The translations under genes and the position numbers were made by a program. Below are positions 57,276-64,000 of a stretch of DNA of 64,000 nucleotides, piece after piece. Positions within the stretch are counted from its first letter, which is position 1. Each line of letters opens with the position of its first letter. The notes below the pieces were generated by a model. It worked only from the letters and a program-made list of their open reading frames with translations. It was not told the origin of the DNA and did not search any database. The DNA comes from Prevotella sp. (lineage in GTDB: Bacteria; Bacteroidota; Bacteroidia; Bacteroidales; Bacteroidaceae), in contig JAFTFX010000026.1 in assembly GCA_017458225.1 (NCBI GenBank), forward strand, positions 82,538 through 146,537, written 5' to 3'.

Positions 57276-59016
57276 CAGTACATGCTTTAATGAAACTCAT
57301 AAACAGCGGGTGCGGATGCAGCACAGTTGAGGAATATTCGGGGTGGAACTGCGTACCGATGTACCAGTGCTTGTCTGGTATTTCGACAATCTCCACCAGA
57401 TTGGCTGCAGGATTAATGCCTACGCATTTCATGCCAGCCTGCTCGTACTCCTCGCGGAAGGCGTTGTTGAATTCGTAGCGATGGCGGTGCCGCTCGCGGA
57501 TAATAGACCCACCCCCTTGCCCCTCCCTGTGAGGGAGGGGAGTAGATAGTTCTGAGTGTGTATAGGCCTCGTATGCCTTACTTCCTTCTACGAGAAGGCA
57601 CTCATATGCGCCCAGTCGCATGGTGCCACCCATTTGCGTAATGTTTTTTTGTTCTTCCATGAGGTCGATAACATATGGAGGCTCTTGGTAACCACTCCCC
57701 TCCCTCACAGGGAGGGGCTGGGGGTGGGTCTCCCTACTGCAAGCCCCTTCATAACCCAGCACGTTGCGGGCAAACTCGATAACCATCATCTGCATGCCCA
57801 GACAGATGCCGAACGTCGGGATGTCGTGAGTACGGGTATATTCGGCGGCAATGATTTTACCCTCTATGCCACGCTGTCCGAAGCCTGGGCAGACGATGAT
57901 GCCTGCCATTCCGTCGAGCTTCTCTGCAACGTTCTCTTTGGTAAGCTCTTCGCTATTGATGAAGTGGAGGCGAGCCTTTACATTATTATATATACCAGCC
58001 AGGTTGAGGCTCTCGCGGATGCTCTTGTAAGCATCTTGCAAGTCATACTTGCCCACCAGTCCGATGTGTACCTCGCGCTGTGCATGGCGCTGTTTGTCGA
58101 GAAAGTCGTGCCAGGGCTTCATGGCAGGTGTCTCCCCCACAGGGATGCCAATCTTCCTCAAGATGGCAGCATCCAGTCCCTGTTTCTGCATGTTCACCGG
58201 CACCTCATAGATGCTGGGCATGTCTTCGCTTTGCACCACGCACTCCAAGTCGACATTACAAAACGACGCCACCTTCATTCGCAAATGGTCGTCAAGATGA
58301 CGTTCTGTGCGCAGCACGAGGATGTCCGGCTGAATGCCCATCGACTGCAACTCCTTCACGCTGTGCTGCGTGGGTTTCGTCTTCAGTTCGTCGGCTGCTT
58401 TCAAATATGGTACGTATGTAAGATGTACACATACAGCATTGCGTCCCAGCTCCCACCGCAACTGTCGGATAGCCTCCATAAACGGCGCACTCTCTATGTC
58501 TCCAATCGTACCGCCCACCTCGGTGATGACAAAGTCAAAAACCTCTCCCGACCTCCCCAAAGGGGAGGAGGGGCTGACGCAGTCTTTGTCCGACAGGCAC
58601 TCCCCTCCTTCGGAGGGGTCGGGGGAGGTTCTCAACATCCTCCGCTTAATCTCGTCCGTGATGTGCGGCACCACCTGAATGGTCTTGCCCAGATAGTCGC
58701 CGCGCCGCTCGCGGTCGATGACCGTTTTGTAGATACGCCCTGTGGTGATAGAGTTGTTGCGCGTAGTGTGAATACCCGTGAAGCGTTCGTAGTGTCCCAG
58801 GTCCAGGTCGGTCTCGAAGCCGTCCTCCGTCACGTAGCACTCGCCGTGCTCGTAGGGATTCAGCGTCCCTGGGTCGATGTTGATGTAGGGGTCGAACTTT
58901 TGAATAGTCACTTTATAGCCGCGTGCCTGCAGCAACTTGCCGATGCTGGCCGAGATGATGCCTTTTCCCAACGAGGAAACCACGCCGCCTGTAACGAAAA
59001 TATATTTTGTGTCCAT
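57256..59016 (-). CDS. pyrG: CTP synthase with palindrome-encoded insertions
   Basis: A 586-residue CTP synthase, longer than the usual 535-545. ATG 59016 opens '[19 protein letters not shown]', the P-loop of the amidoligase domain; the frame extends upstream without coding character. The C-terminal class I glutaminase has Cys in 'FGICLGMQ' and the His-Glu pair in '[10 protein letters not shown]'. Three insertions match GC-rich palindromes: residues 129-159 ('[17 protein letters not shown]...') before '[15 protein letters not shown]', 428-443 ('[14 protein letters not shown]') and 489-503 ('[14 protein letters not shown]'). Between the last two the native '[20 protein letters not shown]' is intact. 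All catalytic elements are present, so the enzyme is probably active. Confidence 0.95.
57506..57732 (-). repeat. Palindrome pair inside pyrG (glutaminase domain)
   Basis: The copies at 57506-57548 and 57688-57732 are in opposite orientation and 139 bp apart. On the pyrG strand they encode [14 protein letters not shown] and [14 protein letters not shown]. The interval encodes conserved PyrG sequence. Confidence 0.85.
58540..58632 (-). repeat. Inverted repeat element inside pyrG (amidoligase domain)
   Basis: A 93-bp element with imperfect inverted halves: ACCTCTCCCGACCTCCCC near 58541 and its complement-like GGAGGGGTCGGGGGAGGTT near 58612. Only about 23 bp lie between the halves. It adds about 30 residues rich in Ser, Pro, Asp and Gly. 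Confidence 0.8.

Positions 59017-64000: not shown

Follow-up and report, generated by a model that had tools for sequence, protein, structure and literature searches.

In-frame palindrome pairs in pyrG and gltB of a Prevotella genome as probable ends of small mobile elements with a DUF559 nuclease

The paired palindromes located in frame within pyrG and gltB of Prevotella sp. are, in our estimate with a probability of about 65%, the ends of small mobile elements, the full form of which would be an end, a DUF559 nuclease gene and an inverted end. The pairs in pyrG and gltB would then be members of these families without a nuclease, consisting either of two ends and a short core at a single site or of ends flanking a native segment of the enzyme. 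The palindromes are paired with a characteristic polarity, are inserted in frame and in part enclose native sequence, and DUF559 genes lie between matched ends of the same kind. We infer that DUF559 cuts the palindromes and so causes their movement. Since the ends read open as Pro/Gly/Arg-rich linkers, copies would survive in surface loops or near N-termini wherever the frame is passable. The cognate DUF559 protein, made in trans, would cut or nick at its palindromes, repair of the break would copy the stretch between two inverted ends to the homologous place of a related genome in a homing-like manner, and an end-bounded stretch would occasionally be copied to a new place.

Results

Five in-frame pairs in pyrG and gltB

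The window, i.e. the whole stretch of 64,000 nucleotides analysed (G000:C10:82538-146537), belongs to a 2.24-Mb draft genome which is 74.7% complete. G, C and L denote genomes, contigs and loci, respectively, and G000 is the genome of the window. The following features were assigned:

57256..59016, minus strand: pyrG with two in-frame palindrome pairs (sequence comparison with relatives)
57505..57550, plus strand: end of pyrG pair 1, canonical type, on the 3' side in the gene
57551..57686, minus strand: native PyrG segment between the ends (...KAYEAY), with a few element-like codons at the rims (alignment with relatives without ends)
57687..57731, minus strand: opposite end of pyrG pair 1
58540..58579, plus strand: end of pyrG pair 2, best match the flank of a DUF559 gene on contig C43 of G000
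58591..58630, minus strand: partner end of pyrG pair 2, matching the C11 and C43 flanks equally well
59309..64000, plus strand: gltB with three in-frame pairs, truncated by the window end
59787..59831, plus strand: left end of gltB pair 1, canonical type
59832..59914, plus strand: native GltB segment X1 (RKLYIIRKRIENRV) (alignment with relatives)
59915..59959, minus strand: right end of gltB pair 1
61212..61255, plus strand: left-hand end of gltB pair 2 (CCCGAGGGG type), most similar to the flank of a DUF559 gene on contig C11
61256..61358, plus strand: native GltB segment X2 (LDKLCKNAEKAVDDGYNYIILTDK; LDKLC..NYIILTDK) (alignment with relatives)
61359..61402, minus strand: right end of gltB pair 2
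63258..63304, minus strand: left member of gltB pair 3, in reversed order ('-+'), type ambiguous, its outer bases also present next to the C21 DUF559 gene
63338..63384, plus strand: right member of gltB pair 3
44432..44476, plus strand: end of a further canonical pair, immediately past a stop codon
44566..44603, minus strand: opposite end of the 44432 pair, ahead of the next gene start

All five pairs that the first-pass annotation had described in the two genes are present, two in pyrG and three in gltB, and both frames stay open with the inserts, as it had stated (612 aa in pyrG and 1595 aa in gltB up to the window end). Alignments with relatives (PyrG protein from 26 of 30 loci and 24 gltB loci) also confirmed that native enzyme sequence lies between the copies in three of the five pairs (57505, 59787 and 61212). 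Among the best 80 gltB matches listed, the relatives are by record title Prevotella/Xylanibacter, mostly rumen metagenome assemblies. At the insert sites, relatives without inserts have short loops of varying length, which are too diverged in the available relatives to give the base-exact empty sites from which a target-site duplication, as in MITEs of insertion sequences, would be read. The possibility that the palindromes encode ancestral protein loops, which had been set as a test, can be put aside because the aligned relatives lack the inserted residues. The linker peptide in GltB is EGSGYLQDEEAALNR. The copies had been taken for one palindrome family; they are indeed paired palindromes, but the five pairs represent about four types.

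The GC3 value of the middle stretch of gltB in G000 is 0.92 as compared to 0.34-0.77 in 23 other tabled loci. Between the ends it is 0.33 in X1 and 0.48 in X2, and it ranges from 0.68 to 0.92 in six other stretches of G000 gltB. A foreign origin of these AT-rich native segments was considered and dropped, since many relatives that have no ends likewise show a low GC3 in X1, and the rest of gltB in G000 is exceptionally GC3-rich.

Several other peculiarities were observed in the same genes. An insert of imperfect repeats (NANRAQGNAAGTPDAANRASGNASG...) at window positions 62009-62120 of gltB occurs in G000 only and is free of these palindromes. The PyrG loops of L130, L131, L147, L160, L167, L215 and others carry further repetitive peptides (TSKQVDKLN..LTCQLVNSST, NSSLFTLHSSL), which look like other in-frame repeat families. 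Genome G034 has two copies of both pyrG and gltB with differing sets of inserts (L130 = G034:C35 and L131 = G034:C19), either by duplication or in a mixed assembly. The gltB frame of L132 (G074:C18) stops inside the right end of pair 1 and resumes in another frame, which is either real or an assembly error. Elsewhere in the window, unrelated repeats were found at 46017-46139 (a 49-nt inverted repeat with 25 nt between the arms) and 47531-47643 (a run of 9-bp repeats).

Abundance, polarity and forms of the palindromes

The elements are not confined to the two genes, as the first description had implied, but occur in many genes and at gene starts. A 25-base pattern was searched with up to three mismatches in 299 genomes of the genus, the same pattern read backwards being used as the control. 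The 58 matches in G000 include many copies beyond pyrG and gltB, contrary to the outcome that the first description had named as refuting it, and 90 of the 299 genomes, G000 included, are carriers. The richest others are G111 (100 matches), G083 (42), G239 (41) and G299 (40), and the control pattern gave no match in any of the 299 genomes. A BLAST search of G000 returned 131 match lines with both strands counted; 20 of 60 genomes, including G000, gave matches, and 19 of these are within the genus.

By profile search of the examined loci, 138 different close pairs were found (deduplicated by exact sequence only, so that orthologues of different species count separately). The claim that the copies are always in opposite orientation is nearly, though not strictly, correct: 127 pairs are '+-', with AGACCC outside and GTTAC inside, seven are '-+' and four have both members in one direction. 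The gaps in the '+-' pairs measure 10-50 bases in 62 cases, 60-200 in 64 and 397 in one. Sixteen of 32 pairs in G000 lie inside a single open frame of at least 500 aa (profile search of the retrieved G000 stretches, counted by hand).

Three forms were distinguished. In the first, two ends and a short core (about 116 bp altogether) are inserted in frame within unrelated genes. The second, in which the ends enclose a native segment, was found in pyrG, gltB and a gene in L022 which we take to be DapF-like. The third is located at gene starts, with one end near the stop of the previous gene and the other in frame near the next N-terminus; MTNQNQNAGVTTPLSAQRGAGGES is an example in a presumably ArgG-like protein, and a second one is in a protein that we assume to be ArgC-like. 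The short cores (n=51) share only a loose common pattern and may or may not have arisen by internal deletion of the nuclease element.

Exchange of palindrome-bounded cassettes between species

Blocks consisting of an end, a native segment and an end are shared by different species, and cassettes bounded by palindromes have thus been exchanged between them. The end-X2-end blocks of L132, L147 and L164 (Prevotella communis E15-14) are 98.6-99.5% identical over 210 nt, and over about 300 nt on either side of the cassette the identity of the same three loci is 85.7-90.0%. Outside the cassette, the first mismatches of L132 to L147 and L164 are reached about 15-24 nt ahead of its left end and, on the other side, about 20 nt past the right one. 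The end-X1-end blocks of L131 and L147 are 100% identical over 210 nt, the identities outside are 83 and 85%, and the edges lie about 20 and 27 nt away; L162 carries the same block at 98%.

These tracts fit homing-like copying, and recombination between near-identical ends would give the same edges. There is a nearly even chance that the exchange is ordinary homologous recombination which starts in the identical ends and does not need the nuclease. When 3567 gltB pairs were scanned, 13 such pair events emerged, four of which, on two cassettes, are located at the ends and nine elsewhere, each of the latter involving at least one partner for which no ends were listed. Short-tract exchange is therefore not restricted to the ends, and the ends are also the most alike stretches between the diverged genes, both of which speak for ordinary recombination. 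However, it leaves the entry of ends into end-less genes unexplained, and it is compatible with the main reading of the palindromes as ends of mobile elements.

DUF559 nuclease genes between matched ends

In L021, which has the longest interior (397 bp) of the pairs found in G000, the two ends surround a frame of 139 codons with a DUF559 domain (PF04480, 107 bits at a cut-off of 20.6) and a weaker match to REase_MTES_1575. The earlier statement that no transposase is visible holds for RAYT/Y1 proteins, with 13 loci and no pair, but a DUF559 nuclease gene does lie between copies of the same palindrome. In 28 genomes of the genus chosen as palindrome-rich or palindrome-poor, PF04480 was found in 19: in all 12 with at least 20 palindrome matches, in six of 13 with none and in one of three between these (Fisher p 0.005 for rich vs matchless genomes). 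An inverted repeat scoring at least 18 was present within about 300 bp in 20 of 30 DUF559 loci of the genus vs 1 of 400 random placements in gltB loci (Fisher 5e-26), which leaves ten DUF559 loci below this score. When the repeats were placed by motif, 22 of 26 loci scored at least 19.5, four further loci having no motif. The full element from end to inverted end measures 481-595 bp in seven examples of the canonical clade.

Seventeen columns are invariant across 24 DUF559 domains, and from their sequence they look catalytic. One Caulobacter DUF559 protein is reported to be Vsr-like and to belong to the PD-(D/E)XK superfamily in the accessible part of its description (PMC12907096). On the basis of this source and of Pfam, the DUF559 fold is described as a predicted Vsr-like PD-(D/E)XK fold.

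The type of the ends is associated with the nuclease lineage. In a tree of 42 DUF559 domains, seven from G000, G074, G083 (two), G111, G181 and G239 form a clade (100/99), and the loci of all seven carry the canonical palindrome or near variants of it on their flanks. The ends of other clades are different and include the GCCCCCGAGGGGGC, CCCGAGGGG and CCCCAAGGGAGGGG types which also occur in gltB of various species, and one group has the reversed order seen in the 63258 pair (both matched by eye). The types intergrade, several non-canonical DUF559 loci reaching at least 18 bits with the canonical profile. Across 35 loci, nuclease similarity and end similarity were correlated (Spearman 0.47, Mantel p 0.0002), the exceptions with nearest nucleases and unlike ends including L359, L364, L300 and L308. 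The canonical-clade nuclease was found in six of the 12 rich genomes, among the DUF559 genes retrieved.

Within G000, nine of 12 window arms gave a single top score for one nuclease flank, consistent with the pairs. The canonical arms matched the C46 nuclease flanks (6/6) and the 61212/61359 arms of the CCCGAGGGG type those on C11 (2/2). One arm of the 58540 pair matched C43 and its partner was tied, and the reversed 63258 pair was split between C21 and C11. The C21 DUF559 flank has the outer bases of the reversed pair, with the alignment broken by an insert. The mirrored outer bases of the 63258-63384 pair had also been considered as copied host flank; this was rejected because these bases also occur next to a DUF559 gene of G000.

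It could be argued that DUF559 is a passenger, i.e. that another agent spreads the palindromes and the nuclease genes lodge between them without moving them. G022 and G032, with nine and seven matches, respectively, are carriers without DUF559, and many DUF559 loci have no clear ends, as this would predict. We consider it unlikely, however, since the nuclease is located between both ends, each clade has its own end type and the catalytic-looking columns are invariant.

Matching of the two ends

The gltB segment X2 could be placed in 82 loci, 28 of which have long inserts on both sides. At least six palindrome types surround X2 among the species, and both sides are of the same type within a locus. 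In 26 non-redundant gltB loci, the score of an end against its own partner was 22.8 vs 12.8, and none of 20000 permutations was as good; the exceptions are L149, L154 and L225, in which the left-end type differs from the right one. Only the left end is present at X2 in L180 and L213 and, judged by peptides, at the first gltB loop in at least eight loci (L133, L148, L153, L161, L169, L170, L222 and L225). No right-only locus was seen in gltB among the examined loci, and there is one in pyrG of G034. Within the canonical type, two ends from one locus resemble each other no more than ends from different loci do (p 0.09; wide pairs p 0.34), and the inner flanks of the pairs do not match (p 0.82). 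Continuous arm-to-arm conversion within the canonical type therefore lacks support.

These data bear on fold-back template switching, by which an inverted copy of one palindrome would be written beyond the native segment. The single type on both sides in the 26 gltB loci, the left-only states and the mirror-image outer flanks at three loci are in agreement with it. Yet the canonical own ends are not more alike than others', the inner flanks are unmatched and the fixed polarity would require a separate reason, and we regard it as improbable. Mobile ends might have reached both sides of a native segment by such fold-back copying or, alternatively, by entering the two strands at the borders of a melted stretch.

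It is highly improbable that a Y1 transposase of a REPIN-RAYT type system is the mover, since, in spite of the inverted REP-like doublets, GTAG at the inner edge of 96 of 231 arms and PF01797 in eight of ten genomes, none of 13 Y1 loci has a pair of these palindromes (a single weak match in L124) and the inverted repeat of the one Y1 locus possessing one (L120) is unrelated, so that a RAYT/IS200 link was rejected.

DUF559 inside host genes and outside the genus

Within the genus, DUF559 is located inside the genes of an ABC-F ATPase (L285) and a DegT-family aminotransferase (L309). It is fused before guanylate kinase in L288 and L301 (by Pfam) and in L291, L302 and partly L290 and L306 (by sequence), before a SpoU methylase in L283 (G000 itself) and before YgbB/IspF in L287. 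PF04480 matches were found in 170 of 296 Bacteroidota genomes. Among 29 DUF559 loci of other genera, the flanking-repeat score was at least 18 in 11 and at least 15 in 17. The proteins that contain DUF559 in frame in these genera are an ISP methylase, LeuS (L312, L315), HsdR (L317, L319, L332), HsdM and MetH, in the last of which it is situated between B12-binding_2 and B12-binding; it also forms the end of a GATase_5 protein. Besides DUF559, the HsdR frame of L332 (175-3315, plus strand) contains a GIY-YIG domain at residues 251-317, which may be a second nuclease family living in frame like DUF559.

LeuS was checked in nine chosen genomes at the TIGR00396 cut-off. Each has one LeuS above the cut-off, and DUF559 is inside the LeuS frame in six: at profile position 233 to 235-239 in G441, G367 and G391 and at about 470-485 in G387, G418 and G476. 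G441 and G367 each consist of a single contig and have a listed completeness of 100%; since their sole LeuS holds DUF559, the interrupted LeuS is presumably functional. In 16 DUF559 frames scanned, Pfam listed no splicing domain at E 0.001.

A flanking repeat scoring at least 18 was found in one of 11 in-gene DUF559 loci (L323); L285, L309, L310, L312, L315, L317, L319, L320, L331 and L332 are below 18, the LeuS loci L312 and L315 scoring 7.5 and 8.5, respectively. In-gene DUF559 with weak repeats may have been inserted long ago, its ends having since decayed, or may be a different phenomenon. Six plasmid DUF559 loci had repeat scores of 52 and 36 (Pseudanabaena), 23 (Sphingomonas), 19.5 (Deinococcus), 17 (Picosynechococcus) and 12.5 (Synechocystis). 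In L371 from a Pseudanabaena plasmid, DUF559 lies between 80-base inverted repeats with two palindromes each, which suggests that the arrangement of DUF559 between repeats is not limited to Bacteroidota.

Discussion

The likeness to the Rickettsia palindromic elements pointed out in the first-pass annotation is real. These elements of about 100-150 bp are described as lying in frame in unrelated protein genes (PMC10969869), and palindromic inserts in frame in unrelated genes were found here as well. In contrast, the CGTC in which they are said to end (PMC3733652) occurs anywhere in only 11 of 231 arms, no mobilizer is named for them in the accessible part of the source (PMC10969869) whereas the present ends flank a DUF559 gene, and the present elements are inverted pairs which often bracket native sequence.

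In architecture, the REPIN/RAYT systems (REPtrons) are nearest, as far as the available portions of their descriptions go (PMC3116915, PMC3733652). They share the inverted doublet as the unit (one inverted polarity in 127 of 138 close pairs here), a gene that lies between the same palindromes, numerous non-autonomous copies and family-specific gene copies. They differ in that the enzyme is a Y1 tyrosine transposase rather than a DUF559 nuclease, in their extragenic location as opposed to the 16 of 32 G000 pairs within long frames, and in that the spacers here can be native gene sequence. With inteins and homing endonuclease genes, the elements share an endonuclease gene in frame within essential genes, but they have no splicing domain detected by Pfam in 16 frames, and they possess palindromic linker ends and non-autonomous copies. 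Caulobacter VsrA is likewise a DUF559 protein of the PD-(D/E)XK superfamily and Vsr-like; unlike the nuclease considered here, it is treated as a mismatch-repair endonuclease tied to a cytosine methyltransferase, and the part of its description that is available mentions no mobile element (PMC12907096).

Judged by titles and the openings of abstracts, none of the publications among the matches listed describes DUF559-palindrome elements, subscription journals being mostly outside the coverage. None of the known systems compared combines such an enzyme with in-frame copies and cassettes of native segments, and the class of elements is therefore considered new.

A broader reading is offered tentatively, and we would sooner bet against it than for it. 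There may be a widespread class of unspliced in-frame mobile elements in which a Vsr-like DUF559 with palindromic linker ends enters essential enzymes (LeuS, MetH, ABC-F, HsdR, HsdM and before guanylate kinase) and stays in the protein. In trans, it would have whatever two of its ends enclose copied into related genomes, be it the nuclease gene, a short core or part of a host enzyme, and fragments of essential enzymes would in this way travel as cassettes bounded by palindromes. This reading loses weight because ten of the 11 in-gene DUF559 loci are without a strong flanking repeat.

If DUF559 is a passenger, the finding reduces to a novel form of elements resembling those of Rickettsia. Protein-coding palindromes have been puzzling ever since the Rickettsia elements, and to our knowledge no agent that moves them has been known. 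A nuclease gene between the same ends, together with an end type that tracks the nuclease lineage, provides a testable agent for coding palindromes. Two observations are relevant to the way in which enzymes acquire linkers and domains, namely the endonuclease domain in a single-copy LeuS in which no splicing domain was seen and the interspecies exchange of enzyme segments whose edges lie close to the palindromes.
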